Shown in pieces: positions 514-56,976 of a DNA stretch of 64,000 nt. Source of the DNA: Prevotella sp. (lineage in GTDB: Bacteria; Bacteroidota; Bacteroidia; Bacteroidales; Bacteroidaceae). Position numbers and translations under genes: made by a program. The notes under the pieces were generated by a model that was not told where the DNA came from, searched no databases, and saw only the letters and a list, made by a program, of their open reading frames with translations. Within the stretch, counting starts at the first letter, position 1; each line of letters begins with the position of its first letter. The DNA is taken from NCBI GenBank assembly GCA_022769285.1, contig JALEKD010000005.1, positions 62,001 through 126,000 of the forward strand, written 5' to 3'.

Positions 514-601
514 GGCTCCATTCTAAGTCTGCGGACGTGCGTCCGAAACCTTAGAATATACATCCGAAACTTTAGAACGCACATTCTCTGTCTCAGCATC
601 C
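514..601 (+). repeat. Intergenic 21-bp tandem-unit element, copy 1
   Basis: Begins GGCTCC; units at 530-550, 551-571, 572-592 (TTAGAATATACATCCGAAACT type); matches three other copies in the window. Confidence 0.8.
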
Positions 602-680
602 ACGGGGCGAAGGTCGGCCGCGTTCGGCAGACCGATTTCCGGAAAAACAAGGCATACGAAAGAAACGATAAGGCACAAAA

Positions 681-30183: not shown

Positions 30184-30240
30184 AATTGTAATGTTTTTAG
30201 TTAGTATTCTGGTTGGTTATTATATCCGAGGGGCTGCTAA

Positions 30241-30333
30241 GGCTCTCTGAATGGTCGGTAGGTGTATCCTAAGGTGTAGGATGTATCTCCGAAGACTTAG
30301 AATGTACGTCCAAAAGTCTGGGATGGTGGCCGC
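30241..30333 (+). repeat. Intergenic 21-bp tandem-unit element, copy 2 (degenerate)
   Basis: Begins GGCTCT; units at 30256-30276, 30277-30297 (TAGGATGTATCTCCGAAGACT) and 30298-30318 (TAGAATGTACGTCCAAAAGTC). Confidence 0.75.
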
Positions 30334-39656: not shown

Positions 39657-40670
39657 TTACTTCTTGTTCAGAGCGAGGTCGATAGCTACGGCGATAGCTA
39701 CGGTTGCACCTACCATAGGGTTGTTACCCATACCCAGATAGCCCATCATCTCTACGTGAGCAGGAACTGAAGAAGAACCTGCGAACTGAGCGTCAGAGTG
39801 CATACGGCCCATGGTGTCGGTCATACCATAAGAAGCAGGACCTGCGGCCATGTTATCGGGATGCAGGGTACGGCCCGTACCGCCACCAGAAGCTACAGAG
39901 AAGTAAGGTTTGCCTGCTGCCAGACGCTCCTTCTTATAGGTTCCGGCTACAGGGTGCTGGAAACGGGTAGGATTGGTAGAGTTACCAGTGATAGACACGT
40001 CAACATTCTCGCGCCAGAGGATAGCTACACCCTCGCGTACATCATCGGCACCATAGCACTTAACCTTGGCACGGGGACCGTCGCTGTAAGCTATCTCGCG
40101 AACCACGTTAACCTCACCGGTGTAGTAGTCAAACTTGGTCTGTACATAGGTGAAGCCATTGATACGGCTGATAATCTGTGCAGCGTCCTTGCCCAGGCCG
40201 TTGAGGATAACGCGCAGAGGCTTGCGGCGAACCTTGTTGGCCATCTCAGCAATCTTGATGGCACCCTCAGCGGCAGCGAATGACTCGTGGCCGGCCAGGA
40301 AGGCGAAGCACTCAGTCTCCTCGCGCAGCAGACGGGCGGCCAGGTTGCCATGGCCAAGACCTACCTTACGGTCATCGGCTACCGAACCGGGAATACAGAA
40401 ACTCTGCAGACCGATACCGATGGCCTCGGCAGCATCAGCAGCTGTCTTTACGCCCTTCTTGATGGCGATGGCTGCTCCACAAACATATGCCCACTTGGCA
40501 TTTTCGAAGCAGATGCGCTGGGTGTCCTCACACATCTGGTAAGGATCGACACCGGCTGCCTCGCATATCTCGTTAGCTTCCTCTACGCTCTTGATTCCGT
40601 TGGCGTTGAGGGCTGCCAGTACCTGCTTCTCGCGGCGCTCCTGGCTCTCATAATTTACTTTTCTAATCAT
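39657..40670 (-). CDS. GGGtGRT protein
   Basis: FSVASGGGTGRTLHPDNMAAGPASYGMTDTMGRMHSDAQFAGSSSVPAHVEMMGYLGMGNNPMVGATVA; family named after this motif. Confidence 0.88.
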   Translation of the reverse strand: MIRKVNYESQERREKQVLAALNANGIKSVEEANEICEAAGVDPYQMCEDTQRICFENAKWAYVCGAAIAIKKGVKTAADAAEAIGIGLQSFCIPGSVADDRKVGLGHGNLAARLLREETECFAFLAGHESFAAAEGAIKIAEMANKVRRKPLRVILNGLGKDAAQIISRINGFTYVQTKFDYYTGEVNVVREIAYSDGPRAKVKCYGADDVREGVAILWRENVDVSITGNSTNPTRFQHPVAGTYKKERLAAGKPYFSVASGGGTGRTLHPDNMAAGPASYGMTDTMGRMHSDAQFAGSSSVPAHVEMMGYLGMGNNPMVGATVAIAVAIDLALNKK

Positions 40671-40689
40671 AGCTGTGTCTCCTCCTTAC

Positions 40690-41391
40690 TTATTCTTTAC
40701 GTGGATCTATAGATTTAACAACGCCCTGTTCTGCGGTGGTACGACCGTAGCGGCCGGTGAACTTCTTCACAGCCTCATTGGCGTCCATACCAGCCTTGAT
40801 GGCCTCCATCATCTTGCCGAGGTGTACGTACTCGTAACCGCAAACCTGGCTGTCCTTGTCAAGGAACATGCGAGTGATGTAGCCCTCTGTAAGTTCCAGG
40901 TAGCGAGTACCCTTGGCTACGGTACCATAAAGAGTACCTGTCTGCGAACGCAGACCCTTGCCCAGATCCTCAAGACCAGCACCGATAACGAGACCTCCCT
41001 CAGAGAAGGCGCTCTGACTGCGGCCGTAAACAATCTGCAGGAAGAGTTCGCGCATGGCTGTATTGATAGCGTCGCACACGAGGTCTGTGTTCAGAGCCTC
41101 CAGGATGGTCTTACCGGGCAGTATCTCTGACGCCATAGCAGCTGAATGGGTCATACCGGTACAGCCGATGGTCTCGACGAGACACTCCTGAATTATGCCC
41201 TCCTTGATGTTGAGCGAGAGCTTGCAGGCTCCCTGCTGGGGGGCACACCATCCCACACCGTGGGTATAACCTGAGATGTCCTTGATCTCCTTGGCTTGAA
41301 TCCATTTTCCCTCTTCGGGGATTGGAGCTGGTCCGTGGTTGGGACCCTTGGCGACAACGCACATGTTGTCTACTTCCTTAGAATAAATCAT
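40690..41391 (-). CDS. NifU-like iron-sulfur cluster assembly scaffold protein
   Basis: GWCAPQQGACKLSLNIKEGIIQECLVETIGCTGMTHSAAMASEILPGKTILEAL; NifU-type cysteines; start set at MIYSKEVDNMCVVAKGPNHG. Confidence 0.82.
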   Translation of the reverse strand: MIYSKEVDNMCVVAKGPNHGPAPIPEEGKWIQAKEIKDISGYTHGVGWCAPQQGACKLSLNIKEGIIQECLVETIGCTGMTHSAAMASEILPGKTILEALNTDLVCDAINTAMRELFLQIVYGRSQSAFSEGGLVIGAGLEDLGKGLRSQTGTLYGTVAKGTRYLELTEGYITRMFLDKDSQVCGYEYVHLGKMMEAIKAGMDANEAVKKFTGRYGRTTAEQGVVKSIDPRKE

Positions 41392-41425
41392 ATCGTTAAA
41401 AACTAATACAGTAAAAATGTCCTTA

Positions 41426-41464
41426 CATATCTTGACGGCTTCACCGTTAACGGGCGATATGCCC
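41426..41464 (-). promoter_or_regulatory. Candidate structured leader (two hairpins plus loop complementarity) of the scaffold/GGGtGRT operon
   Basis: Minus strand GGGC-ATATC-GCCC, ACGG-TGAAG-CCGT, then GATAT complementary to the first loop. Confidence 0.4.
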
Positions 41465-41478
41465 AGCTTTTCATTGCG

Positions 41479-41486
41479 CAAAGTTA
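41479..41486 (-). promoter_or_regulatory. -7 box (TAACTTTG) for the scaffold/GGGtGRT operon
   Basis: Minus strand TAnnTTTG match. Confidence 0.5.
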
Positions 41487-41741
41487 TAAAAATCTCAGTA
41501 AACTACCTAATAATGATGATGCTTTTTTGTGTCGCTCTAAAGTTTTTTAACCCCCTCATCATCTTTTCTGGCTATTTTGCCATTCTTACTTGACAATTAC
41601 CTGCGGCTCGCTCACAGACAGCCATTATCGCTGTAACTATGAGGGCCGTCGGGCAGCTTTTCGCGCAGGCAGATGGCAGTGTGCCTATATATTATAAAAT
41701 AGGTGCAAATGGTGTTGGGAATGATGGACGATGGCTATTAA

Positions 41742-41785
41742 TTGTAATACGATTGTAATGTGGTCTTAATAGGTTCGTAATATGG
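41742..41785 (+). promoter_or_regulatory. Four 11-bp direct repeats (PHO-box-like) upstream of the phosphate transporter
   Basis: TTGTAAT-ACGA, TTGTAAT-GTGG, TCTTAAT-AGGT, TCGTAAT-ATGG in register. Confidence 0.65.
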
Positions 41786-41791
41786 GGGAGC

Positions 41792-41799
41792 TACCTTTG
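41792..41799 (+). promoter_or_regulatory. -7 box (TACCTTTG) for the PiT gene
   Basis: TAnnTTTG match 7 bp after the direct repeats; no TTTG at the -33 position. Confidence 0.6.
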
Positions 41800-41836
41800 C
41801 CCACAGTTAAAAATAAGGATTAATACGAACTGAATT

Positions 41837-44101
41837 ATGAGTGCTATTTATCTGCTTATCGTCGTGTTCCTGCTCTGCCTGGCCGTCTTCGACCTCTATG
41901 TGGGCGTGAGCAACGACGCAGTAAACTTCCTCCAGTCGGCTGTGGGTGCCCGGGTGGCCACGTTTCGCACCATTTTGCTGGTGGCGTCCCTGGGAGTCAT
42001 TATCGGAGCTGTCATGTCATCAGGCATGATGGATGTGGCCCGCCACGGCATCATGCTACCTACCCACTATGCCATGAGCGAGGTGATGGTGGTCTTTCTG
42101 GCCGTAATGGTTACCGATGTCATTGTGCTGAACGTCTTCAACTCGCTGGGCATGCCCACCTCTACCACCGTGTCGCTGGTGTTCGAGCTCTTAGGCGGTG
42201 CCTTTGTGCTGTCGCTTATCAAGATGGCGGCCGACCACCAGCTGGTCATCAACGACCTGCTCAATACCGACAAGGCGCTCAGCGTTATCCTGGCCATCTT
42301 TGTATCGGTGGCCATAGCCTTTGTCTTCGGTGTTGTGGTACAGTGGCTTACACGTATAGTGTTCACCTTTAAGTATAGCCGGGGCGGCTTGGTGGCTGTG
42401 GCACTCTTCGGTGGCGTGGCCTTTACCATCCTGTCTTATTTCATATTTCTCAAGGGACTGGGGGCTTCGCCCTATATACCTGCCGATGCCCGTGTGTGGA
42501 TAGACGGGCACATGCCCCTGCTGATGGGCCTTACCATGGTGGTGTCCACGGTGCTGATGGGCGTGCTCCACGGGTTGCATGTCAATGTGTTCCGCATCGT
42601 GGTACTGATGGGAACATTTGCCCTGGCCATGGCCTTTGCCGGTAATGACCTGGTCAACTTCATCGGTGTGCCCCTGGCAGGCTTAGATAGCTTCATGGAC
42701 TACTATAACCACGGCCTGGCCCAGGGCATAGCGCCCACGCACTACATGATGAAGTCGCTCATGGAGCCGGCCACCACACCGCCCCTCTTCCTGCTCATAG
42801 CCGGTCTGATTATGATAGTGGCCATGGCCACGTCCAAGAAGGCGCAGCGCGTGATACAGACCTCGGTAGACTTGTCGCGCCAGGACGAGGGCGAGGAGAT
42901 GTTCGGGTCGTCTCGGGCTGCCCGCGCCATAGTACGTACCGTGCAGACGGTGGCCGACAGCGTGGGTAGCGTTACTCAGCGCATACCCCTGATACAGCGT
43001 ATGAGCCAGTGGATAAACAGCCGGTTTGCCCCGGTCGACGTGGCCGATGGCGACAGGGCTGCTTTTGATGTGGTGCGTGCCGCCGTCAACCTGGTGCTGG
43101 CCTCTATGCTCATCACCATAGGTACCAACTATAAGCTGCCGCTCTCTACTACCTACGTTACCTTCATGGTGGCCATGGGTAGCTCGCTGGCCGACCGGGC
43201 CTGGAGCCGCGAGAGTGCCGTGTTCCGCATTACGGGTGTGCTGTCGGTCATCGGCGGATGGTTTATCACAGCTGGTGTAGCTTTCATGGCCTGTGCCTTA
43301 GTGTGTGTGGCCATGTATTACGGCGGACTGGCCGTGCAGCTGCTGTTCATCTGCCTGGTGATTTACATCCTGTTCTGCTCGGGTCACGACAAGGACAAGG
43401 GCGCTAAGGACAACGAGGGACGCGACCTGTATAGGCTGATGATGCGGGCCCACGAGCCTGAGATAGTGTGGGATTTGCTGAAGAAGTATGTGCGCCAGAC
43501 GCAGAGCGCCATGACGCAGATAGCGCTGAATGAGTACAATCAGTTGTTAGACGGATTTGAGAACAACCGGCCGGCCCCTTTGCGGCGTGTACAGCGCCAT
43601 CTGCGCGAGGCCAAGGATCGGGTGCGCTGCGTGCGCAAGCAGCAGTTGTTGGCCCTGCGCCGCATACCGGTCGAGGTGGCCATGGAGCGCAACACTTGGT
43701 TCCACGTGGGCATCAATGCCAGTCAGCAGTACATCTACTGCCTGCGGCGCATGCTTGAGCCGGTCAAGGAGCATGTAGATAACAACTTCACACCGTTCCC
43801 CCAGTATCTCCGCGACGAGTATCAGCCCATCAAGTTTAAAATTGTAGAGCTGATGCGCGACACCGAGACTCAGATTTCGAGCGGCCGCTTTGACCGTTAC
43901 CGCGACACGCTGGCTGCGGCTGACAAGCTCAAGGACGAGTTGTCTGTTTACCGTCACCGCCAGATTGACCGTTTACAAGGCATTAGCGACAACGGCGCCC
44001 TCCAGGTGGCCCTGCTCTATCTGAACGTGCTCCAGGAGAGCCAGCAGCTGCTCAGCAACATGCGCCACCAGCTGCGCGCGGCCAAAAAGTTCATGGAGTA
44101 A
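41837..44101 (+). CDS. PiT family inorganic phosphate transporter with C-terminal helical extension
   Basis: GVSNDAVNFLQSAVGARVATFRTILL, FNSLGMPTSTTVSLVFELLGGAF; second half NYKLPLSTTYVTFMVAMGSSLADRAW; ~230-aa charged helical C-terminus. Confidence 0.9.
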   Translation: MSAIYLLIVVFLLCLAVFDLYVGVSNDAVNFLQSAVGARVATFRTILLVASLGVIIGAVMSSGMMDVARHGIMLPTHYAMSEVMVVFLAVMVTDVIVLNVFNSLGMPTSTTVSLVFELLGGAFVLSLIKMAADHQLVINDLLNTDKALSVILAIFVSVAIAFVFGVVVQWLTRIVFTFKYSRGGLVAVALFGGVAFTILSYFIFLKGLGASPYIPADARVWIDGHMPLLMGLTMVVSTVLMGVLHGLHVNVFRIVVLMGTFALAMAFAGNDLVNFIGVPLAGLDSFMDYYNHGLAQGIAPTHYMMKSLMEPATTPPLFLLIAGLIMIVAMATSKKAQRVIQTSVDLSRQDEGEEMFGSSRAARAIVRTVQTVADSVGSVTQRIPLIQRMSQWINSRFAPVDVADGDRAAFDVVRAAVNLVLASMLITIGTNYKLPLSTTYVTFMVAMGSSLADRAWSRESAVFRITGVLSVIGGWFITAGVAFMACALVCVAMYYGGLAVQLLFICLVIYILFCSGHDKDKGAKDNEGRDLYRLMMRAHEPEIVWDLLKKYVRQTQSAMTQIALNEYNQLLDGFENNRPAPLRRVQRHLREAKDRVRCVRKQQLLALRRIPVEVAMERNTWFHVGINASQQYIYCLRRMLEPVKEHVDNNFTPFPQYLRDEYQPIKFKIVELMRDTETQISSGRFDRYRDTLAAADKLKDELSVYRHRQIDRLQGISDNGALQVALLYLNVLQESQQLLSNMRHQLRAAKKFME

Positions 44102-44145
44102 ACAGCCCATCATAGTTAACGTTATTATAGGTAATCGATACCATG

Positions 44146-44185
44146 GGGTACCCGGCTTCCGTGCGCGAAGTGGGGTGCCCTTTTT
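44146..44185 (+). terminator. Intrinsic terminator after the PiT gene
   Basis: GGGTACCC..CTTC-loop-GAAG..GGGTGCCC followed by TTTTT. Confidence 0.8.
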
Positions 44186-44287
44186 CTTGGCCCATGGCCG
44201 ATGGGGGATAGGCAGGATGGCTCCGCTCGTCTTGTGGTCATCGCCCCCGTCCTGGTGACTTCTCCCAACTACCCCTCCGTCCTTCTC

Positions 44288-44379
44288 GGCTCCGTCCGAA
44301 GACTTAGAGTGTATATCCGGAAGTTGGCGATGCACATCCTGGGGCACAGAATGTACATCCCAATTCTTCGGACGGATCC
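44288..44379 (+). repeat. Intergenic 21-bp tandem-unit element with terminal inverted repeats, copy 3
   Basis: GGCTCCGTCCGAAGACTTAGA at left; AATTCTTCGGACGGATCC at right; units at 44305, 44326, 44347. Confidence 0.88.
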
Positions 44380-44562
44380 CGTGGGGGCGAGCGGGAGGGT
44401 GTGGGGTGGTCGGGCGCGTGGCGCATAGCTTATCAGGGTTTGGCAGGGTACCCTGTGCCCATTTTGCCATCTCCATAGGCCATCTATGGGGCCTTGTCCT
44501 ACTTGCCATCAGGGTGGCGGGTTAGGCCCTGAGAGTAAAAATTGCCCTGCGTGGGGCGATTT

Positions 44563-44576
44563 TATGATTAATCATA
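44563..44576. promoter_or_regulatory. 14-bp perfect palindrome upstream of the DUF4230 pair
   Basis: TATGATTAATCATA, ending 23 bp before the TACCTTTG box. Confidence 0.45.
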
Positions 44577-44599
44577 GTGTGTATTTGCCCAACTTGCAC

Positions 44600-44607
44600 T
44601 ACCTTTG
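44600..44607 (+). promoter_or_regulatory. -7 box (TACCTTTG) for the DUF4230 pair
   Basis: TAnnTTTG match. Confidence 0.55.
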
Positions 44608-44690
44608 TACCATGCTGACGGCGTTGGGACGGCCCTTTGTGGCCATAGCCCGTGCGTGAGCGGCAGCTAACAACACTAATGATATAACCG

Positions 44691-45374
44691 ATGAAGACAA
44701 CGGCATACCTTCTGGCCCTATGGGTACTGACGGCCTTGTGCGGGTGCCACGGCGCTAAGACCGACGACACCGCGGCGCAGCCCGTAGACACGGTTCCCAT
44801 GATGGTGATGCAGATACAGCAGTGCTCGCGCCTCTATACGGCCGAGTACAAGGTGCGAAAGATAGTGATGCACAACGATGAACGGGCTCTCCGTGGCCGT
44901 CTGATGGGGCGCGACTTCAGTCTGACGCTTCCGGGCGGCACCCGCGCCGTAGCCATCCCCATTGACGCCACGGTCAAGGCGTATATAGACTTCTCGCAGT
45001 TCTCGGCAGCTAATGTGAGCCGGCATGGGCGGCGGGTAGAGATAACCCTGCCCGACCCCGAGGTGGTACTTACCTCGACCCGGATAGACCACGATGCCGT
45101 GCGGCAGCATGTTCCCCTGCTGCGTAGCCGCTTTACCGATGCCGAGCTTACCGCGCTGGAACGCCAGGGCCGTCAGGCCATCGTGAAGAGCATCCCCGAC
45201 TTAGGCATCGTGACCACGGCGCGCGAGAACGCCGCCTCGCTGCTCATTCCCATCATTGAGCAGATGGGGTTCAACCGCGACGACATCACCATTACCTTCC
45301 GCAAGGATTTCGGGCCGGCCACTATCCTCAAACAACTCACTCAAATTCATTCAGACCATGTTACAGCACAATAG
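44691..45374 (+). CDS. DUF4230 domain-containing lipoprotein
   Basis: Lipobox-like ALCGC; QCSRLYTAEYKVRKIVMHNDE...; FSQFSAANVSRHGRRVEITLPDPEVVLTSTRIDHD. Confidence 0.78.
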   Translation: MKTTAYLLALWVLTALCGCHGAKTDDTAAQPVDTVPMMVMQIQQCSRLYTAEYKVRKIVMHNDERALRGRLMGRDFSLTLPGGTRAVAIPIDATVKAYIDFSQFSAANVSRHGRRVEITLPDPEVVLTSTRIDHDAVRQHVPLLRSRFTDAELTALERQGRQAIVKSIPDLGIVTTARENAASLLIPIIEQMGFNRDDITITFRKDFGPATILKQLTQIHSDHVTAQ

Positions 45375-46005
45375 AAAGCGCCCCTCTGACCTGGGCCGTC
45401 TGCTGCGGCTCATCCCCGTCAATGCCTGGATAGCTGCCTTTACCGTCGCTATCGTAGCGGTGGCTGTCGTGGTACTTGTCATGTGGGTGCGCCGTGGCAA
45501 CGAGGTGAGCACCGCCCGCGTAGCGCATACCACCATTACGCCCATGCAGGTGCGCTCCATAGAGCGGATAGGCCAGTGGGAGTTCTTGGCGGTGAGCGAT
45601 GAGGAGATAGTAGACACGGTGAGCCGCGGGTTCTTTGGCGACAGCGAGTTAATACGTATTTATTATGGCACGCTTCGCTTGGGCATCGATTTGACCCACG
45701 CTCGCCCCGGATGGATAACCATGGACGGCGACACGCTGCGGGCGGTGCTTCCGCCGATAACCCTGCTCTCGCCCGACTTCATCGACGAGGCTCGCACACG
45801 TACCTTCTATGAGGATGGTAAGTGGACACCAGCCGACCGCAAGCAGCTCTATCTACGGGCGCAGCGGGCCATGAGCCGTAGGGTGATGAGCCGCGAGAAC
45901 ATAGAGAGTGCCCGCCGCACGGCTCTGGCTCAGGTAGACAAGCTGCTGCGGGGCATGGGCTTTGACAAGATAAGCATACGGTTTGAGGAGGGGGCGGCCC
46001 GATAG
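45358..46005 (+). CDS. DUF4230 domain-containing membrane-anchored protein
   Basis: N-terminal TM; RIYYGTLRLGIDLTHARPGWITMDGDTLRAVLPPITLLSPDFIDEARTRTFYEDGKW; overlaps the preceding gene. Confidence 0.75.
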   Translation: MLQHNRKRPSDLGRLLRLIPVNAWIAAFTVAIVAVAVVVLVMWVRRGNEVSTARVAHTTITPMQVRSIERIGQWEFLAVSDEEIVDTVSRGFFGDSELIRIYYGTLRLGIDLTHARPGWITMDGDTLRAVLPPITLLSPDFIDEARTRTFYEDGKWTPADRKQLYLRAQRAMSRRVMSRENIESARRTALAQVDKLLRGMGFDKISIRFEEGAAR

Positions 46006-46042
46006 GCCGCGGCCCCCATCTTCTTACTGGCAGATACGACAA

Positions 46043-46068
46043 AGGCTCCCTTGGGTGTAAGGGAGCCT
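46043..46068. terminator. Bidirectional hairpin terminator
   Basis: AGGCTCCCTT-GGGTGT-AAGGGAGCCT with outer AGATAC/GTATCT. Confidence 0.75.
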
Positions 46069-46096
46069 TCGCTGTATCTCTCGGCAGGCACAGGGG

Positions 46097-46732
46097 TCAG
46101 ATGTAGTATTCGGCGCTGTCTACCAGGCCAGCCCTGAAGGCGTAGCGTGTAGCCTCGTGTACATTGTTAACGCCCAACTTGCGGAAGATGTTCTTGCGGT
46201 GGGTGTTTACCGTGTGGAAACTGGAGCACCGCTTCTCGGCTATCTCGCGCGTGGTGAGTCCCAGGGCTATGTCCTTCAGTATCTCGGTCTCTGTCCGGGT
46301 CAGTTTTACATCCTCGGTCTTTTCGGCTACAGGTGCTAACAGCATCTCGGTGGTGCGCCGGCAGATGAAGCGCTGTCCCTGGGCCACCAGTTGTAGCGCC
46401 TCGCGTATCTCTGACAGCGGCGACTCCTTGAGGAGCACGCTGAACTGATGGTTACTGGCGGCCACTATCTTGACAAAGTCTATGCTGAGGTCTTCGCTGA
46501 ACAGAATCCACGATGACAAGGGGAACCGCTGACCGAGAATGAGCAGCTCGTCGGCATCATTGATATCAAAGAGGGTATAGTCCAGTATCACGGTAGCCGT
46601 AGGGGTGGCTTTGAGCCCCTCTATCACCTCGGCCTTGTCCTCAGTTACCTTAAATGGGTAGCCAGCCTGGGTACATAGGTACATCAGGCCGGCCTGGGTA
46701 ATTCCCTGTTTGTCTGCAAGCAGTATTTCCAT
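46097..46732 (-). CDS. LuxR/NarL-family response regulator
   Basis: TATVILDYTLFD receiver; C-terminal LTRTETEILKDIALGLTTREIAEKRCSSFHTVNTHRKNIFRKLGV. Confidence 0.92.
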   Translation of the reverse strand: MEILLADKQGITQAGLMYLCTQAGYPFKVTEDKAEVIEGLKATPTATVILDYTLFDINDADELLILGQRFPLSSWILFSEDLSIDFVKIVAASNHQFSVLLKESPLSEIREALQLVAQGQRFICRRTTEMLLAPVAEKTEDVKLTRTETEILKDIALGLTTREIAEKRCSSFHTVNTHRKNIFRKLGVNNVHEATRYAFRAGLVDSAEYYI

Positions 46733-46802
46733 TTGTTTGGGTGCTATTAAGGTTGTTTTCTGTGTATGTGGAGCCATGGGGCCAAGGGCCCCGATGGCTC
46801 TG

Positions 46803-49379
46803 TCAGAACGACATGGCGAAAGTAAATCGTACGCCGTTCTTCTTGACGTCACGGTTGTTGAGGTAATTCAGGCGGTGAACGAAGTCTACCCCGAAGAACT
46901 TGAATATATTGTGTACGCCAGCCACTATCTCCATGTAGGGAGTCTTCTTGTCCATGATATAGCTGTCGCGTGGCATCTCAAAGAGCATCGGGTCGCCTTG
47001 GTTCTGGGCCAGGGTGGGATTGTTCTTATCCGTGAGTGTTCCAAACATGCCCTTGAAGGCTACGTATTCACGCCATTTGAGCCGCTTAATGAGTGGTATG
47101 CGGTTCAGTAGCTTGCCGTTAAGATCCCAGCAGATAGCCCAGTAGGCATAGCGGTCGCTGATAAACTCCATATTGCGCATCATGGAGAATGTATTCTCAA
47201 GCTCGAAGAACGATACGTTTACCGGTGGCATAATCAGCAGTGGGAACGGGGCCTTGCTCCACTGGGCTCCGCCCTTCAGGTGGTTATCTATATAGCCCCA
47301 GCTGCCCAGCCAGAAACGCTTGTAGATGCCTACCGTGGTGAGGTTGAGCTTATATTGGCCACCGAGGAAGTTCTTCAGACCGGTGGTATGGCTTACGGTA
47401 AACTCGGGAGCGTCCAGGTTAACCGGCCAGCGCTGTTGCTTGGTGTTAATGTAGGTCTGTCCCGGGCAGTACTTGATGCCTACGGTCAGCTCGGTGGTCC
47501 GTATCTTGTTCACCATGCTTCCGTTGTCTACATGTCTAAAGTATAGGTCGCCCGCAGGTTCATTGCTTTCAGCCTTGATTTCCGTGTTGAATCTCAAGCC
47601 CCAGTCTGTCTCGTAGTTGAAGGCCAGCCGCTGTCTATTGTAGAAGTACATCTGCTCAACCTTTTGCACGCGGAACGCCATGAACATGTTGTCCTTGTTG
47701 TGGATAAGGTATTTGTCAGCCGGAGACATCACGTCGCGCGCCGACTCGAATATGATGTTTCTCTGAGGGAACTCGAACGGCACATTTTTCTTCTTGTTCA
47801 GTGCGTAGGTTATCTCTGAGCCGTAATAGTGGTTCCCGGTCTTGGTGCCGTAGGCATAGTAGCCGTTCCAGAACAGGTGCTTGTTCAGGTTGGCCGTCGT
47901 ACGGCCGCTAACGCGTAACCGCAGTCCGTCAACGAAGTTACTTGACACCACCGTGTTTACCGGGCCAAAGTCAAACTTGCTTCCGTTCTTCTTGCTGCTG
48001 GTCTCTACATAGTTCTCTAAGAACGCCTTGATGCCAAAGAGTATCCACTTGTAGTTCCTGGACTGCTCCATGCGGTGGATGAAGGCATCCATCGACGACT
48101 CGCCCTTAGTTAGCTCCACCGCGCGGTACTGCTCCCAGAAGGCGTCGTCTCTTATCATCGCGTCGGCTTCATGCCGCGACTTGGCCTTACCCTTGAACAG
48201 CTTGCGGGGCAGCTCGTCAAAGGCATAGTTGCTCAGCCGGGTGTTGCGGATACACACGCACTTGGTAGCCTTGGATATGATGCTCAGTTCGGCTATCATG
48301 TCGTCGGTAGTGAGTACCCACTCGCCATCGGGGAGCTTGGTGTACTCTTGTACTATCTTCAGGTCGTCTATGAAGTTGACATCGCTGCGCTTGGGGATGG
48401 TCAGGTTGCATTTCTTGACATGCAGCGACGAGTCGGCCAGTACATACAGCTCGCCCCTGAAGCCAAAGTCTTGCTGATTGTTCGGCAGAAACTGCAGGTG
48501 ATAGCACAAATCACGGTCTACATAGACCGTATCTTCGATGTAATAACGGTAGAAGGAAATGGCTGTCTCACCGATAGGCGATGGGAAGGGGTACTGCAAC
48601 AGGCGGACGTGGTCATCGTATATGTCTACATCGGTAAACACCTCCTTGAGCATGGTGTTGAGAATATCGCCAGTTTGCAGCACATTGTTAATTCCGTCAC
48701 TGCGCTGGCCCTTGATGATGGTCTTCTCTGTGCGAGGGCTCTTACGGTATATCTGTTGGGTCACGGTTTCGTCAACCGATATGGGCAGCATGCGCTTTTG
48801 GGTAAACGGATTGGTCTCGACAAAGTCTACCAGCCATGGCGACCGCTTGAAGAGACCCTGCTCCAGGTCTTTGTCGCTGAGGTCGTTAAGGCCAAAGGTG
48901 ATTTTCTGGTACTTGTTGTACTGGAAGTAGTCGTGGTTCTCCAGCTTGGTACGTTTCTTGGCGGCAATGACGCGCCGCATAAGCTCCACGGCAGGATTGT
49001 CCTTGCGGCGGTAGCGTGCGCGGCGGGCCTTGATGGTTACCTCATTGATACTGCGGGTCGCGCTCTTCAGCTTGATTACTATGTGGGTGGTATTGGGGGT
49101 GATGGCTACTGTGGCAGGAGTATAGCCCACCGAACTGATGGTCAGTGTCCATCCGTTGTGGCGCTCTATACTGAACTTGCCGTCACCGTCGCTCGACACG
49201 GCCATGTGCTCTCCTTTATAGGATGCGCTGGCATAGGGAATGGGCCCCCCGTCGTCGGCATCTATTACCTCACCGGTAATGTTCTGGGCCGATAGGGTGG
49301 TGAAGACAAATAAAAATAATAACAAGGGTATAACCCTTAGAGCAGAAGATATGATAGCTCTCTGTCTGATGTCATCCAT
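46803..49379 (-). CDS. DUF5686 and carboxypeptidase-regulatory-like domain protein (outer membrane)
   Basis: NITGEVIDADDGGPIPYASASYKG N-terminal plug-like domain; YNKYQKITFGLNDL; barrel C-terminus ending VRFTFAMSF. Confidence 0.9.
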   Translation of the reverse strand: MDDIRQRAIISSALRVIPLLLFLFVFTTLSAQNITGEVIDADDGGPIPYASASYKGEHMAVSSDGDGKFSIERHNGWTLTISSVGYTPATVAITPNTTHIVIKLKSATRSINEVTIKARRARYRRKDNPAVELMRRVIAAKKRTKLENHDYFQYNKYQKITFGLNDLSDKDLEQGLFKRSPWLVDFVETNPFTQKRMLPISVDETVTQQIYRKSPRTEKTIIKGQRSDGINNVLQTGDILNTMLKEVFTDVDIYDDHVRLLQYPFPSPIGETAISFYRYYIEDTVYVDRDLCYHLQFLPNNQQDFGFRGELYVLADSSLHVKKCNLTIPKRSDVNFIDDLKIVQEYTKLPDGEWVLTTDDMIAELSIISKATKCVCIRNTRLSNYAFDELPRKLFKGKAKSRHEADAMIRDDAFWEQYRAVELTKGESSMDAFIHRMEQSRNYKWILFGIKAFLENYVETSSKKNGSKFDFGPVNTVVSSNFVDGLRLRVSGRTTANLNKHLFWNGYYAYGTKTGNHYYGSEITYALNKKKNVPFEFPQRNIIFESARDVMSPADKYLIHNKDNMFMAFRVQKVEQMYFYNRQRLAFNYETDWGLRFNTEIKAESNEPAGDLYFRHVDNGSMVNKIRTTELTVGIKYCPGQTYINTKQQRWPVNLDAPEFTVSHTTGLKNFLGGQYKLNLTTVGIYKRFWLGSWGYIDNHLKGGAQWSKAPFPLLIMPPVNVSFFELENTFSMMRNMEFISDRYAYWAICWDLNGKLLNRIPLIKRLKWREYVAFKGMFGTLTDKNNPTLAQNQGDPMLFEMPRDSYIMDKKTPYMEIVAGVHNIFKFFGVDFVHRLNYLNNRDVKKNGVRFTFAMSF

Positions 49380-49497
49380 TTCGTCAAGAATAATCTTTTG
49401 GATTGCAAAGTTACTTAATAAGTTGCGAGGAGAGAAAACTTTTTTACCTTTTTATGTTTTTTTCAGTCGTTTGAGCCACTCTTCAGAGAAAAATCAC

Positions 49498-49505
49498 TAC
49501 TTTTG
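49498..49505 (+). promoter_or_regulatory. -7 box (TACTTTTG) just upstream of pgpA
   Basis: TAnnTTTG match only 5 bp before ATG 49511. Confidence 0.5.
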
Positions 49506-49510
49506 CACCC

Positions 49511-49981
49511 ATGAAGGCACGATTACCGTTTTTTGCCACCATGATAGGTAGTGGGTTTGGCAGTGGCTTTTGGCCCTGGGGGCCTGGCACGGCCGGGGCT
49601 TTACTGGCTACAGTTGTATGGATAGTTTTGGGACTGTGGCTCCCTGCCACTGCGCTGATGTGGGCTACCCTGGGCCTGTGCGTGGCGTTCACCATAGCCG
49701 GAACATGGGCCACGGCACGTCTGCAGTCTTACTGGGGCGACGACCCCAGCCGCGTGGTGGTTGACGAGATGGTGGGCGTGTGGGTGCCGTTGGTGGTGTG
49801 TCCTCACGGCAGCATCGCCTATGCCGCCGCAGCCTTTTTGCTGTTTCGCTTCTTCGACATTCTGAAGCCCATGGGCATCCGGGCGCTCGACCGGCGGGTG
49901 GGGGCGTTCTGGGTGATGGCCGATGACCTGTTAGCCGGCATCTACTCGCTGATAGCTATTATTATAATAAGGTGTATCTGA
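49511..49981 (+). CDS. Phosphatidylglycerophosphatase A family protein
   Basis: GSGFGSGFWPWGPGTAGALLA, DDPSRVVVDEMVGVWVPL, FFDILKPMGIRALD. Confidence 0.92.
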   Translation: MKARLPFFATMIGSGFGSGFWPWGPGTAGALLATVVWIVLGLWLPATALMWATLGLCVAFTIAGTWATARLQSYWGDDPSRVVVDEMVGVWVPLVVCPHGSIAYAAAAFLLFRFFDILKPMGIRALDRRVGAFWVMADDLLAGIYSLIAIIIIRCI

Positions 49982-49982
49982 G

Positions 49983-50390
49983 ATGGCTGGCCTGCGACAC
50001 TCAATCCTGACATTCTGCAAGGCCGAGACCTCGGCTATGGTAGCTTCGGTGGCCGACTTCGGGCTGACCGTCCTGCTGACCGAGGTGGTGGGTGTGTGGT
50101 ATGCCTATGCTACCCTGATGGGCGCGGTTACCGGGGCTGTCATCAACTGCTGCGTTAACTACCGGTGGGTATTCTCGGCTGCCGGGCTCAGCAAGTGTGG
50201 CGTGGCCCTGCGTTACCTGGCTGTCTGGATAGGCAGCATAGCGCTCAACACCACGGGCACCTACCTGCTCACCGAACTCACGGGCATCAACTATATCATC
50301 TCCAAGATTGTGGTGGCCTGTCTGGTGGCCACACTCTGGAATTACCAGATGCAGCGTGTCTATGTTTTTCAGTCTAAGAGACGTAATTGA
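49983..50390 (+). CDS. GtrA family protein
   Basis: Four TMs; FCKAETSAMVASVADFGLTVLLTEVV, NCCVNYRWVF, WNYQMQRVYVF. Confidence 0.85.
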   Translation: MAGLRHSILTFCKAETSAMVASVADFGLTVLLTEVVGVWYAYATLMGAVTGAVINCCVNYRWVFSAAGLSKCGVALRYLAVWIGSIALNTTGTYLLTELTGINYIISKIVVACLVATLWNYQMQRVYVFQSKRRN

Positions 50391-50398
50391 TACAAGAT

Positions 50399-51055
50399 AT
50401 GAACTACAGAGATTTTTTACAGAAACTTATTTATGTGGTTATCAACCCAATTATTAAGGCCATGATAGCCATAGGTATTACCCCTAATGTGGTTACCACC
50501 ATAGGGTTTGTGGGCAACCTGGTGGCCACGGGCCTGTTCATAGCCGGAGGTATAGCCCTGCAGGAGGGCGATGCTGCGGGTGGCATGGCGCTCATCGGGT
50601 GGGGTGGTTTCACCATTCTCTTTGCCGGGTTGTTTGACATGATGGATGGGCGGTTGGCTCGCATGGGCAACATGTCCTCTACCTTTGGCGCCCTGTGGGA
50701 CTCTACGCTCGACAGGTACAGCGAGATGGTCTCGCTGTTCGGCATTTCGGTCGTATTCCTTAACGCGGGCTGGTTCTGGACAGGCATTGTTACCTACGCA
50801 GCTATCCTGGGTTCGGTCATGGTGAGCTATGTGCGCGCCCGTGCCGAGGGCTTGGATATTGAGTGCAAGGTGGGCTTGCTGCAGCGTCCCGAGCGCGTGG
50901 TCATCACCGCTGTGGTGGCTATGGTGACTGGCTGTACGGGCAACCTGTGGTGGTTGGCTGGCGGTATGGCCGTCATAGCCCTGTTGGCCAATATGACGGC
51001 TTTCTGGCGGGTAGCCCATTGTTACCACGAGTTGGCTAAGCACGACAAGAAGTAA
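50399..51055 (+). CDS. CDP-alcohol phosphatidyltransferase family protein
   Basis: FDMMDGRLARMGNMSSTFGALWDSTLDRYSEM matches DG..AR..G..D..D signature. Confidence 0.92.
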   Translation: MNYRDFLQKLIYVVINPIIKAMIAIGITPNVVTTIGFVGNLVATGLFIAGGIALQEGDAAGGMALIGWGGFTILFAGLFDMMDGRLARMGNMSSTFGALWDSTLDRYSEMVSLFGISVVFLNAGWFWTGIVTYAAILGSVMVSYVRARAEGLDIECKVGLLQRPERVVITAVVAMVTGCTGNLWWLAGGMAVIALLANMTAFWRVAHCYHELAKHDKK

Positions 51056-51071
51056 CCCTGCTATCCTTACC

Positions 51072-51926
51072 GTGATGTTCAGTATATACATTATTATATT
51101 ATATATAGTACTGATAGCCGTCCGCCCAACGCGTAAGGTGGCCTTGGCCCTGCTGCCGTGGGCCATCTTTGCCTGCTCGTACGACTGGATGCGGCTATAT
51201 CCCAACTATAAGGTCAACCCGATAGACGTGGCAGGCCTGTATGGGGCTGAGAAACATCTTTTTGGTATCACCCTGGCCAGTGGGACGGTGCTTACGCCTA
51301 ATGAATACTTCGCCTTGCACCACTGTGGCGTGGCCGACATCATGGCCGGCTTCTTCTACCTGTGCTGGGTGCCTGTTCCGTTAGGCTTTGCGCTCTATCT
51401 GTACTTCAGCCGGCAGTACCGCGCCTACCTGCGGTTCTCGATGGCTTTCCTGCTGGTCAATCTGTTAGGCTTTTGTGGCTACTATATACACCCTGCAGCC
51501 CCACCATGGTATGCCATGGAGTATGGCTTTACGCCAGTGCTCCACACGCCGGGCAACGTGGCTGGCCTGGGGCGCTTCGATGCCCTTATGGGCATACCCG
51601 TGTTCCACGCCCTGTATGGTAAGAACGCCAATGTCTTTGCCGCGGTACCTTCGCTCCATGCCGCCTATATGCTTATAGCCACGGCATACGCTGCCATGAG
51701 CAGGCAGCACCGTGGGGTGGTGATAGTCTTTGCCCTGATATGTGCCGGTATCTGGTGGACGGCCGTATATACGGCTCACCACTATATCATTGATGTGCTC
51801 TTAGGTATCATGACGGCCTTGGTGGGTATGGTGCTGTTAGAGAACGTGCTGCGACATACGGCGGTGGGTCGACGGTTCTTAGATAGCTACGTCAGACTGA
51901 TAGCGCGGTGTTCCGTTGCCGCCTAA
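51072..51926 (+). CDS. PAP2-family / inositol phosphorylceramide synthase-like membrane protein
   Basis: YIHPAAPPWY, AAVPSLHAAYMLIA, TAHHYIIDVLLG (PAP2/AUR1-type motifs). Confidence 0.85.
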   Translation: MMFSIYIIILYIVLIAVRPTRKVALALLPWAIFACSYDWMRLYPNYKVNPIDVAGLYGAEKHLFGITLASGTVLTPNEYFALHHCGVADIMAGFFYLCWVPVPLGFALYLYFSRQYRAYLRFSMAFLLVNLLGFCGYYIHPAAPPWYAMEYGFTPVLHTPGNVAGLGRFDALMGIPVFHALYGKNANVFAAVPSLHAAYMLIATAYAAMSRQHRGVVIVFALICAGIWWTAVYTAHHYIIDVLLGIMTALVGMVLLENVLRHTAVGRRFLDSYVRLIARCSVAA

Positions 51927-51933
51927 ACGATAA

Positions 51934-51966
51934 CAGCACCTATGCCCATTGCGGGTACAGGTGCTG
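51934..51966. terminator. Intrinsic terminator after the lipid cluster
   Basis: CAGCACCT-loop-AGGTGCTG between convergent genes. Confidence 0.8.
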
Positions 51967-51989
51967 CTGTGTTTAGAGAGATAGTATGT

Positions 51990-52769
51990 TTATTTGATAA
52001 AGTTCAGATTATGGGCATGGATGTCGCCCGAGCCCTTGCAACTCTTGTTCAGATGTCTGAGTGTGCCGCTGAGGCTGATGTCGCCCGAGCCGAAGACTTT
52101 GCAGTTGACGGTGCCGCACTGGTTGAGATGGAGGGCTATGTCGCCCGAACCGTAAACTTCGGCATTGGTCGTGGTCACTTTTTCTTCATTGATTTCTATG
52201 TCGCCCGACCCGCGTATAGAAATAAGCGACTTGGCACAGCACAGCTTGTCAACCTCTACATCGCCCGACCCGCGCACATCCAGTGTGAAGTTGTCGCAAA
52301 TGACGTTTCTCAGATCTATGTCGCCCGAACCTACCAGGGTTACCGCCAGGTTGTCGCTGTCTATCTTCCTGGGGGCCTTGAAGTCGCCGCTGCCCTGTAG
52401 GCGTATCTGGGTGAGGTCTGGCGAGGTTACATACACTTTCACATCATCGTCCGAGGAACCGAACTTGAAGCCAAACGTACCCCCTCGGGCACTGGTCTTG
52501 ATGACCAGGGTGCCTTGTTCTACCGTGGTCAGGATGTTGTCTACATCGCTGGCCTTTCCTACCACCTTGACGCTTGTCGTGTTGCCCTGGGTGTAGATGA
52601 CATCGTTGCTGCCTATCAGCGCTATCTTGGTAAAGTTACTCACCCGGCGTACCGAGGTCTTGTTTTGTTGTATGGAAGTGGGATCGGGGTCATTGCTTGC
52701 CATCGCGGTGTTCTTGGTCGAAGCACATGCCATTAGCGTGAGTGCTGTCAGAATAATCAGTTGTTTCAT
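51990..52769 (-). CDS. DUF2807 / GIN-domain protein with repeated GSGD(I/V/F) turns
   Basis: RLQGSGDFK, LVGSGDIDL, VRGSGDVEV, IRGSGDIEI, VYGSGDIAL, VFGSGDISL, CKGSGDIHA; lipobox-like start. Confidence 0.88.
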   Translation of the reverse strand: MKQLIILTALTLMACASTKNTAMASNDPDPTSIQQNKTSVRRVSNFTKIALIGSNDVIYTQGNTTSVKVVGKASDVDNILTTVEQGTLVIKTSARGGTFGFKFGSSDDDVKVYVTSPDLTQIRLQGSGDFKAPRKIDSDNLAVTLVGSGDIDLRNVICDNFTLDVRGSGDVEVDKLCCAKSLISIRGSGDIEINEEKVTTTNAEVYGSGDIALHLNQCGTVNCKVFGSGDISLSGTLRHLNKSCKGSGDIHAHNLNFIK

Positions 52770-52904
52770 AATGGTACTTTGTTTCTGTTGTTATTTGTCT
52801 GTTAGACGACGTGGGTCGGCCAAAAGTTGCAAACGGCTCACTTTTTTCGATATTTTTTTCGTTGGTGGCCCTAAAAGTCCCTCTTCCGCGTTATTGATAA
52901 TAAA

Positions 52905-52934
52905 AAAGGTGGCACCCCTGCGAGCGCCACCTTT
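52905..52934 (-). terminator. Intrinsic terminator after pepD-like gene
   Basis: AAAGGTGGC-loop-GCCACCTTT with T-tract on the minus strand. Confidence 0.8.
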
Positions 52935-52953
52935 ACTATGATTAATCCGATTG

Positions 52954-54408
52954 TTATTCGGGTATGTTCTTGAGTATCTCCAACAAGTGGTCCCATACCA
53001 TCTGTACGGTAGGAATGAGCAACCGCTCGTCGGGCGTGTGTACATAGCGCAGTGTAGGCCCGAAGCTCACCATGTCGAGTTCCGGATAGCGCTCTGAGAA
53101 CAGGCCACACTCCAGTCCGGCGTGGATGCCTAACACTTTGGGATCCTTGCCAAACAGCTTGCGATAGGCTGCCACGGTTATATCTACCAACTTGCTGTTG
53201 GGGTTCATCTTCCAGGCGGGATAGCCGTCGGTCGTCATAACCTTGGCGCCAGCCAGACGATAGGCCGCAGCCACGGTGTTGCACATATTGTCCAGGTTGC
53301 TCATCACATTGGAACGCTGCGACGACAATACCTCTACCTGGGTGTCTGTGGTCTTTACGGCGGCTACATTGCTCGATGTCTCTACCAGCCAGTCCAGTGC
53401 CTCGTCCTGGCACATGGCAAATACGCCATTGTCTACAGCCTGCAGGGCCAGCACGATGTTGATGCCTACCTGAGCGGGGATAACCTGGGTGGCCTCGGTG
53501 CTTGCCAGGCTGAACTTCATCGTGGTGTCAGTAACATGATACTCATCCTCTACCTGGGCCACGAATACGTTGAAGTCGGCCTTGATGGTTTCCTTGTCGG
53601 CAGCGGGTATGGCGAATACCACCTTGCCGTCGCGGGGGATGGCATTGTGCAGCTTGCCACTGTTAAATGAGGCTATGCGCAGGTCAGTCTTGGCCTGTAC
53701 GTTGTAGAGGAACCGCGCGAGCAGCTTGATGGCATTGGCGCGCTTCTTGTTGATATCGTCGCCAGAGTGGCCGCCCACCAGGCCTTTGACCGAAGCCTCC
53801 ATGAAGAAGTAGCCAGCAGGTGCCTCTTCGCGCACGAAGTCGAATGTGGCTACCGTGCTACGTCCGCCGGCGCAGCTTACGAACAGCTGTCCCTCATCCT
53901 CTGAGTCCAGGTTGATAAGGTACTGCCCGGTCATAAAGCCCGACTTCATGCCTATGGCGCCGGTAAGCTGTGTCTCCTCATCGCGGGTAAATACGCACTC
54001 GATGGGGCCATGTTCTATATCATCGCTGTCCAGCAGGGCCAGTTCTATGGCACAGCCTATGCCATCGTCGGCTCCCAGCGTGGTACCCTTGGCCCGCAGC
54101 CACTCACCGTCTACGTAGGTCTGTATGGCGTCCTTGTGGAAGTCAAAGTCTACATCTACCAGTTTGTCGCAGACCATGTCCATGTGGCTCTGCAGTATCA
54201 CCGTCTTGCGGTTCTCGTATCCGGGAGTAGCCGGCTTGCGTATCAGCACATTGCCAGTGGCATCTACCTGAGTATCCAGCCCATGCTCCTTGCCAAAGTT
54301 GGTCAGATACTCACTCATGAGCTCCTCGTGCTTCGAGGGGCGGGGGATTTGATTGATTTTAGCAAACTGCTCGAACACGCGAGCGGGTTTTAGTTCTACA
54401 TTACTCAT
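52954..54408 (-). CDS. pepD: Aminoacyl-histidine dipeptidase (M20C)
   Basis: LQSHMDMVCDK, TTLGADDGIGCAIELALL, FTRDEETQLTGA, HAGLECGLFSERYPELDMVSFGPT. Confidence 0.92.
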   Translation of the reverse strand: MSNVELKPARVFEQFAKINQIPRPSKHEELMSEYLTNFGKEHGLDTQVDATGNVLIRKPATPGYENRKTVILQSHMDMVCDKLVDVDFDFHKDAIQTYVDGEWLRAKGTTLGADDGIGCAIELALLDSDDIEHGPIECVFTRDEETQLTGAIGMKSGFMTGQYLINLDSEDEGQLFVSCAGGRSTVATFDFVREEAPAGYFFMEASVKGLVGGHSGDDINKKRANAIKLLARFLYNVQAKTDLRIASFNSGKLHNAIPRDGKVVFAIPAADKETIKADFNVFVAQVEDEYHVTDTTMKFSLASTEATQVIPAQVGINIVLALQAVDNGVFAMCQDEALDWLVETSSNVAAVKTTDTQVEVLSSQRSNVMSNLDNMCNTVAAAYRLAGAKVMTTDGYPAWKMNPNSKLVDITVAAYRKLFGKDPKVLGIHAGLECGLFSERYPELDMVSFGPTLRYVHTPDERLLIPTVQMVWDHLLEILKNIPE

Positions 54409-54424
54409 TTTTATGATATTTTAT

Positions 54425-54455
54425 TTTGTCTTTTAATCTAAAAACGCTACCTTTG
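54425..54455 (+). promoter_or_regulatory. Bacteroidetes-type promoter
   Basis: TTTG-N19-TACCTTTG upstream of the small-protein gene. Confidence 0.75.
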
Positions 54456-54497
54456 TCCACAGAATGGTGTCAAAGAGATACTGCAAAATTAAGGAAA

Positions 54498-54692
54498 ATG
54501 ATAGAAACTCTACTCATAACCGTGTTAATAATTGCTATTGCAGTGGCATTATTATCCGTTAAGTTGATTTTTCGCCGCAACGGCTCGTTTTCCTCGCAGC
54601 ACATACACGACAGCAAGGCCATGCGCGACCGGGGCATTCACTGCGTGATAGACCAGGATCGCGAGGCGCGTCGCCGGGGTGGTGCTTGGTAG
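54498..54692 (+). CDS. Small single-TM conserved protein, 64 aa
   Basis: MIETLLITVLIIAIAVALLSVKLIFRRNGSFSSQHIHDSKAMRDRGIHCVIDQDREARRRGGAW; start consistent with promoter position. Confidence 0.7.
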   Translation: MIETLLITVLIIAIAVALLSVKLIFRRNGSFSSQHIHDSKAMRDRGIHCVIDQDREARRRGGAW

Positions 54693-54741
54693 CAGGGAGT
54701 ACACCTTATTATATATAGAGACAATAAACACAAAAGGATAT

Positions 54742-55356
54742 ATGAAGAAAAATCTGATGAAAACCATGGCGGCAGTGGCAATGCTGTCGCTTACGATGAC
54801 TGCTTGTAACAAGAGTAATCCGCAGCAAGACGAGAAACAGCCTACAGCTGCCCCTGGCAGCTTGAAGATAGCCTATGTAGAGGTAGACTCTATCATGTCG
54901 CAGTACAAGTTCTGCAAGGACTACTCCATGATACTTCAGAAGAAGGGACAGAATATCCAGAACACCCTGATGGCCAAGCAGCAGCAGTTGCAGGCCGCCA
55001 CGGCCAACTTCCAGCAGAAGCTGCAGCAGAACGCCTACACCCGCGAGCAGGCCGAAGGCATCCAGGCTGGTCTGCAGAAGCAGGGTGCCGACCTTGATGC
55101 ACTCAACCGCCGTCTTACCAACGAGTTTCAGGTAGAGACTGATAAGTATAACAAGGCCCTGCGCGACTCTATCCAGCATTTTTTGGTGGCTTATAATAAG
55201 GACAAGAAGTACAGCCTGATACTGAGCAAGGCTGGCGACAACCTGCTGTATGCCGACAAGGCTTACGACATTACCAGCGAGGTAATAGCAGGTCTGAACA
55301 AGGCTTACAAGTCTACAGCCGCTACTAAGGCTGCCACCGACGAGGAGAAAAAGTAA
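54742..55356 (+). CDS. OmpH/Skp family periplasmic chaperone-like lipoprotein
   Basis: SLTMTACNKS lipobox; LKIAYVEVDSIMSQYKFCKDYS; long coiled coil. Confidence 0.85.
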   Translation: MKKNLMKTMAAVAMLSLTMTACNKSNPQQDEKQPTAAPGSLKIAYVEVDSIMSQYKFCKDYSMILQKKGQNIQNTLMAKQQQLQAATANFQQKLQQNAYTREQAEGIQAGLQKQGADLDALNRRLTNEFQVETDKYNKALRDSIQHFLVAYNKDKKYSLILSKAGDNLLYADKAYDITSEVIAGLNKAYKSTAATKAATDEEKK

Positions 55357-55399
55357 AACGATAAGGCCGTAGCCACAGGCGATGGCCGCCCAGTTATAA

Positions 55400-55452
55400 C
55401 GGAGTACGCAGAGCGAGTCGCCATGGGCGCCGGCTTTGGTACTCCGCTTTTT
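55400..55452 (+). terminator. Intrinsic terminator
   Basis: CGGAGTAC-loop-GTACTCCG followed by CTTTTTT. Confidence 0.8.
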
Positions 55453-55467
55453 TATATCATTCTGTCT

Positions 55468-56115
55468 ATGACACGTAAGGAACGCTATGAGCGCATACTC
55501 GCTTACTTTGCCGCCAATCAGCCCATGGTGACCACCGAGCTGCAGTTTGGCTCGGCCTTTCAGTTACTGGTGGCCACTCTGCTGAGTGCCCAGTGTACCG
55601 ACAAGCGTATTAACCAGGTTACCCCGGCCCTCTTTGCCCGTTACCCGTCGGCCCGCGAGATGGCCGCCGCCGAGCCCGAGGAGGTGCTGGCGTACATCAG
55701 TTCGGTAAGTTACCCCAATGCCAAGGCCGCCCATCTGGTGGCGATGGCCCGGAAATTGATGAGCGACTTCGGAGGCGATGTGCCGTCGGACAGGGCCCTG
55801 CTGATGACGCTGCCCGGTGTGGGCCGCAAGACAGCCAATGTCATCCAGGCCGTATGGTTCGGCAAGCCCACCTTAGCGGTAGACACCCATGTGTTCCGGG
55901 TAAGCCACCGGCTGGGACTGGTAAGCCGCACGGCCACCACGCCCCTCAAGGTAGAGCAGGAACTCATGCGCCACATTCCCACCGACCAGGTGCCCGACGC
56001 CCACCACTGGTTGCTGCTACACGGCCGGTATATCTGTAAGAGCGCCCGCCCTCTGTGCGATGAGTGCCCGTTCGACAGTTTCTGCCCCAAGCTCTTGGAG
56101 CAGTCTAAACTATAA
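55468..56115 (+). CDS. nth: Endonuclease III
   Basis: LLSAQCTDKRINQVTPALF, LPGVGRKTANVI, VDTHVFRVSHRLGL, C-X6-C-X2-C-X5-C FeS motif. Confidence 0.95.
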   Translation: MTRKERYERILAYFAANQPMVTTELQFGSAFQLLVATLLSAQCTDKRINQVTPALFARYPSAREMAAAEPEEVLAYISSVSYPNAKAAHLVAMARKLMSDFGGDVPSDRALLMTLPGVGRKTANVIQAVWFGKPTLAVDTHVFRVSHRLGLVSRTATTPLKVEQELMRHIPTDQVPDAHHWLLLHGRYICKSARPLCDECPFDSFCPKLLEQSKL

Positions 56116-56129
56116 ATCACGTAAACACA

Positions 56130-56840: not shown

Positions 56841-56859
56841 CCGCCCGGCAGCCGCCCGT

Positions 56860-56951
56860 GGCTCCGTCTGAAGACATAGAATGTATGTCCTAAGTTCAGA
56901 AATATACATCCAAGCGTTTAGTATGTACAGTCTAAGTCTTCGGACGGAGCC
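56860..56951 (+). repeat. Intergenic 21-bp tandem-unit element with terminal inverted repeats, copy 4
   Basis: GGCTCCGTCTGAAGACATAGA (left) vs reverse complement of TCTAAGTCTTCGGACGGAGCC (right), 19/21; units at 56877, 56898, 56919. Confidence 0.9.
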
Positions 56952-56976
56952 GTGGAAGGCTGAGTAAGTTGTTGGG

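Follow-up and report, generated by a model that had tools for sequence, protein, structure and literature searches.

A 92-bp array of four dyads in the window

Within the analysed DNA stretch of 64,000 nucleotides (the window), an intergenic element is located at positions 44288..44379. It lies in a co-directional gap, 186 bp past the stop of CDS 41837-44101 and 311 bp ahead of CDS 44691, and inspection of the sequence confirmed it to be present as set out in a preliminary description of this DNA. The exact length of the element is 92 bp, composed of octamers that alternate with 13-mers (8+13+8+13+8+13+8+13+8). The 13-mers (CCGAAGNCTTAGG in the source genome) are four imperfect dyads spaced at 21 bp, which corresponds to two helical turns, the linkers are likewise dyads (RAYGTRCRTY), and the entire 92 bp are palindromic. 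As both 13-mers and linkers are dyads, a dyad occurs every 10.5 bp, alternately of the 13-mer and of the linker kind. The features of this array and of the three related ones in the window are as follows.

44288..44379, no strand assigned: 92-bp four-dyad array in a co-directional gap, the copy named in the preliminary description
44288..44295, plus strand: left terminal octamer GGCTCCGT, a modified half-site, recognised by its sequence and column pattern
44296..44308, no strand assigned: dyad 1, 13-mer CCGAAGACTTAGA
44309..44316, no strand assigned: linker octamer GTGTATAT
44317..44329, no strand assigned: dyad 2, 13-mer
44330..44337, no strand assigned: central octamer ATGCACAT, midpoint of the entire palindrome
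44338..44350, no strand assigned: dyad 3, 13-mer
44351..44358, no strand assigned: linker octamer ATGTACAT
44359..44371, no strand assigned: dyad 4, 13-mer CCCAATTCTTCGG
44372..44379, minus strand: right terminal octamer ACGGATCC, an inverted copy of the left end
56860..56951, no strand assigned: second intact 92-bp array, 19 bp past the stop of CDS 56166-56840
514..605, no strand assigned: diverged array in a convergent gap, with a profile match at 514-598
30239..30330, no strand assigned: degenerate array, with a profile match at about 30265-30325

Because four 13-bp dyads are joined by 8-bp linkers, the element can be read as a direct repeat and equally as a palindrome, and it is due to this symmetric layout that the preliminary description reported 21-bp units as well as terminal inverted repeats. 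Both are real; however, they constitute one structure and not two. The related copies which had been announced at 514, 30241 and 56860 do exist, with the match at about 30265-30325 being degenerate and the one at 514-598 slightly decayed at one end. When copies were aligned, no indels were encountered in the well-preserved ones, all of which measure 92 bp.

Copy number and placement in the source genome

The source genome is a draft of 2.32 Mb in 52 contigs with a completeness of 84.6%. Allowing at most 3 mismatches, the motif TAGAATGTACATCCGAAG matched 5 times in the window, where 0.02 were expected, and 22 times in the genome, versus 0 for the reversed control. A sequence-only profile constructed from 25 copies detected about 42 loci in the genome, with E-values down to 5e-22 and nearly all of them on both strands, and combining the scan with gene calls led to a total of 41 copies. 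Clearly, the suspected genome-wide dispersed family exists and is not confined to the window. All 41 copies lie entirely outside called genes, and the coding fraction of the window is about 88%.

Twenty copies are located in co-directional, 10 in convergent and 9 in divergent gaps, and the gap type of 2 could not be determined. Divergent gaps are depleted (9/39, compared to a length-weighted expectation of 0.40-0.48; p 0.002-0.03), and a start codon is found at a distance of up to 80 bp in only 2 of 38 copies, versus 24% expected; these placement p-values are approximate because the expectation was derived from sampled stretches. Convergent gaps are somewhat enriched among the dispersed copies and, on average, stop codons are nearer to the copies than start codons. 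A position beside the 3' end of a CDS, reported for the four copies of the window, therefore holds for these four but not for the genome as a whole.

Conservation pattern of the array

Conservation along the array is uneven. At many columns the purine/pyrimidine identity is 97-100% fixed, and a weak 21-bp purine/pyrimidine rhythm reaches about 70 bp beyond the array on either side. Among 34 copies, dependence between positions was confined to the dyad centre (offsets 1 and 3) and the linker centre. This dyadic, purine/pyrimidine-strict constraint resembles that seen at protein-binding sites.

Any palindrome can fold, and the shorter average distance to stop codons would also suit a structured RNA or a bidirectional terminator formed in transcripts. 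Covariation of the arms, which the preliminary description had proposed to check, was absent at the variable stem offsets 4-9 across the 34 copies, with GT and AC mismatches being equally frequent, and in the arrays of Prevotella isolate P5-92 the half-sites of one dyad often mismatch each other. Nine of 39 copies reside in divergent gaps, and in the window stretch 40000-60000 no credible Rfam match was obtained. A role as RNA or transcript-end structure, one of the four options initially offered for the element, is therefore very improbable.

Arrays in other genomes

The profile derived from the source genome matched 27 of 150 congeneric genomes, about 15 of them strongly, so that a scan of other Bacteroidales, as had been suggested, did reveal arrays. 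Among the matches listed in a GTDB-wide pattern scan were the Prevotella isolates P5-92 and P2-180 as well as other Bacteroidales, and many of the listed matches outside the Bacteroidales resemble plain tandem repeats. Forty arrays from about 25 species could be aligned over 92 columns without any gap, with A/T at constant 21-bp intervals. The sequence type of the array differs between species. In the closed genome G069, which harbors six arrays, no ori or ter pattern and no clear domain clustering was observed.

When P5-92 and P2-180 were compared, 3 of about 13 sampled arrays occupied the same gene gap, and in one of these shared gaps the array of P2-180 is exactly one 21-bp unit longer than that of P5-92 (L387 versus L386), a difference in unit number of the kind that the preliminary description had thought worth looking for. 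The low number of positions common to two related isolates would be expected if the element were a MITE or a REPIN-like selfish repeat that spreads between genes and relies on mobilisation in trans, and the dispersed, intergenic and palindromic character of the arrays, their conserved termini and their species-specific sequence types also fit such a repeat. However, target-site duplications of 3-8 bp in the array flanks occurred at the level of the mispaired-flank null, and pairwise comparison of the source-genome copies revealed no near-identical recent ones, the most similar pair being 77% identical. Also, conservation is non-uniform and purine/pyrimidine-strict, no transposase recurs beside the arrays, and the gene that is linked to them encodes an HU-family protein (see below). 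We therefore consider a mobile repeat, the MITE of the preliminary description included, to be rather improbable.

An HU-HIG protein is associated with the arrays

When array-adjacent genes were compared across species, one family stood out, encoding a protein of about 212 amino acids beside the array in four species; in this count, loci L107 and L243 are both from P2-180. The HU/IHF superfamily includes the HU-HIG clade (Pfam PF18291; Burroughs et al., 2017, as cited in PMC5906684). Scores of the partner protein against the HU-HIG profile were 50.2 and 68.7 bits, above the curated cut-off of 26.2, and its own profile resembles IHF-beta/HU at residues about 30-84. Residues 134-207 gave a weak profile match to MarR/winged-helix chains and the C-terminus is probably a winged helix; structure prediction from 3 sequences was of low confidence (mean pLDDT of 43).

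Of the 150 congeneric genomes, 35 have the partner gene, and none of the 15 with strong arrays lacks it (p=2e-11, without correction for kinship). When a universal profile was applied, at least 5 matches were obtained in 21 genomes, of which 20 encode the partner (p=1.7e-14, a value that is not independent of gene linkage because arrays beside the partner gene in these genomes went into part of the profile); the one without it, G096, has a completeness of 74%. Among eight protein-negative controls, seven genomes lacked any match and one had a single weak match. A dozen genomes displayed a few weak profile matches and no partner at E<=1e-20. The similarity between arrays tracks that between proteins (Mantel p<0.001), a signal which is ambiguous because shared descent could produce the same correlation. 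In a partial Mantel analysis for the winged helix (p=0.06), array specificity was not attributable to the winged helix over the HU part.

Gyrase wrapping or cleavage sites might show a 21-bp (2 x 10.5) rhythm reaching past the core and an intergenic siting nearer to 3' ends, in which case the association with an HU-like protein would be secondary. However, gyrase is universal, yet the arrays are almost confined to genomes with the HU-HIG partner, and their sequence is species-specific and highly constrained, which makes such topoisomerase sites a most improbable explanation.

An origin from phage or plasmid was considered and rejected: viral contigs provided only remote HU-HIG matches, there was one remote phage match, and the 'plasmid' records resemble draft contigs of three strains.

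A single array was noted in G142 (81% complete), at about 2051-2142 of L396, where it is flanked by a putative alaS and by a topoisomerase-IV-subunit-A-like gene; a search of this genome at E<=1e-20 did not detect the partner protein.

Arrays upstream of the partner gene

Upstream regions were evaluated with a model-free de novo score that looks for four equally spaced dyads. All 30 upstream regions of partner genes were flagged, 24 of them with scores of at least 40, compared to 4 of 60 control genes, none of which reached 40. The gene-linked array of the source genome itself is among the weaker copies (32.7 versus a shuffle maximum of 29.0), and the profile of the dispersed copies matches it with an E-value of 3e-10. 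For the G110 gene, the best-scoring repeat is a different one of 23 bp and the 21-bp array is situated further upstream. Where these genomes encode further HU-HIG paralogues, most of those are without an upstream array. Among distant relatives outside the genus, upstream arrays with a period of 21 or 22 bp are often present, and they were also encountered at genes in records of Phocaeicola massiliensis, Parabacteroides distasonis and Bacteroides finegoldii, the HU-HIG-winged-helix protein of the last being WP_022275387.1.

The Bacteroidales -7 box TAnnTTTG occurs at -45 to -8 before the array in 16 of 23 gene-linked cases, mostly at -18 (+-2), and the gene-linked array usually begins about 10 bp past this box. 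At the edges of dispersed arrays the box is rare (2/82 and 5/38). Gene-linked and dispersed arrays are of the same sequence type in G066, G069, G102, G015, G154 and G103; in G120 and G146, part of the dispersed copies differ in sequence type from the array at the gene.

The promoter position of the gene-linked copy, together with an apparently high sequence specificity, would be compatible with an ordinary transcriptional regulon, in which the protein binds operators upstream of its targets and the dispersed copies are such operators. Against this speak the depletion of dispersed copies from divergent gaps, their rarity near start codons (80 bp or less) and beside a -7 box, and the fact that, except for the HU-HIG gene, no gene family clearly recurs among the neighbours compared. 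We consider such a regulon unlikely.

Among the four options of the preliminary description, it is the protein-binding array that is supported by the lack of covariation, the purine/pyrimidine constraint, the co-occurrence with HU-HIG and the promoter-linked array.

Some arrays of other period were observed in addition. At least 17 dispersed loci of G120 (L126-L142) have a 22-bp period, 16 of them with exactly four GTCCGAAG[GC]CTTCGGAC palindromes; they often terminate in A6/T6, and no HU-HIG gene inspected in G120 has an array of this kind upstream. Also, G355 (L403, L414, L421, L425) and G179 (L405, L415, L422) contain several distant HU-HIG-type paralogues, each with a different upstream 22-bp tandem array, an arrangement that suggests paralogue-specific arrays.

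Comparison with known systems

Enterobacterial REP/BIME elements are dispersed intergenic palindromes that are bound by nucleoid proteins and consist of single short hairpin units with which a REP transposase (RAYT) is associated. The arrays described here resemble them in being dispersed intergenic palindromes. Unlike REP/BIME, they comprise four dyads that recur every 21 bp, and their species-specific sequence is tied to a dedicated HU-type gene. The genes that recur beside arrays across species are not RAYT. Considering array architecture and adjacent genes, the REP/BIME option of the preliminary description finds no support. The Lrp/AsnC octamer is a multimer that wraps DNA and binds a series of palindromic sites spaced by whole helical turns; the array is similar in its phased palindromes, but the partner here belongs to the HU family and not to Lrp.

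In Porphyromonas gingivalis, BrickBuilt is a MITE/minisatellite with about 20 copies and a 23-nt unit, AGAYCATARTATCCTCTCRTRTG, in which the unit number varies from 1 to 22.8, a long leader and a tail are present, the ends are of the IS5 type (GAGACC) and target-site duplications were reported for some copies (PMC4596501). Like the 92-bp array, it is found in Bacteroidales, is intergenic and has short tandem units of similar length and inverted ends. In contrast, the 92-bp array has an unrelated unit and a fixed length, and neither target-site duplications nor IS-like ends were recognised. An identity with BrickBuilt was thus rejected, as the 92-bp array has neither the AGAYCATARTATCCTCTCRTRTG unit nor GAGACC ends. 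BrickBuilt_14 is listed beside the PF00216 HU-type DNA-binding protein PGN_0872 (PMC4596501, Table 1), so that one may ask whether BrickBuilt repeats are part of a comparable system.

With regard to a dedicated protein and its sites, a comparison is provided by MatP/matS and MaoP/maoS of E. coli. The maoS site adjoins the maoP gene. In these systems a dedicated DNA-binding protein acts together with specific chromosomal sites, and matS, of 13 bp, is repeated 23 times (PMC3330122, PMC5023128). The proteins are, however, unrelated to the partner, and single short sites are used there, as compared to the 92-bp four-dyad arrays here, whose tie to the partner is a statistical one. With respect to HU-HIG, the partner exceeds the curated cut-off, and a DNA element is absent from the Pfam description.

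Proposed function of the arrays

The architecture of the element, the co-occurrence of array and gene and the upstream placement are established, as is the match of sequence types in most of the genomes compared. From these sequence data we consider it quite likely that each element is the cognate binding array for one sequence-specific protein of the HU family (HU-HIG, PF18291, with a probable winged helix). Every dyad would be occupied by protein dimers on a single helix face, as 21 bp equal two turns, and several dimers might then come together, bending or wrapping a DNA length of about 90 bp or more. The gene-linked array would be an operator at the transcription start and thereby allow autoregulation.

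The 5-40 dispersed copies may serve as anchoring or wrapping sites that shape the nucleoid, a role we propose only tentatively. It is suggested because the dispersed copies avoid promoters and divergent gaps and show partial conservation of position, and in function MatP/matS or MaoP/maoS would then be a closer parallel than a classical regulon. A yet more speculative, though conceivable, extension is that Bacteroidales possess a hitherto unrecognised and rapidly diversifying chromatin system in which sequence-specific HU-winged-helix proteins sit on 92-bp arrays in a nucleosome-like manner, regulate themselves by way of the array at their own start site and organise the chromosome by means of the dispersed arrays.

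HU proteins are usually regarded as weakly specific DNA benders, and, to our knowledge, little has been established about nucleoid structuring in Bacteroidales. Judged from sequence comparisons, the Bacteroidales-wide pairing of protein and DNA has strong statistical support and appears to be undescribed: the literature searched contained no description of the array, of the pairing or of a cognate site for HU-HIG, and Burroughs et al. (2017), outside that search, may hold predictions. Here, an HU-type protein appears to have gained a long and strictly phased cognate site, of which one genome has dozens and whose sequence changes from species to species. This would supply a computed target for a Pfam family that has been characterised mostly by sequence analysis and would account for a dispersed repeat family, and the pairing can be tested in the cultured gut commensals Bacteroides finegoldii and Parabacteroides distasonis.
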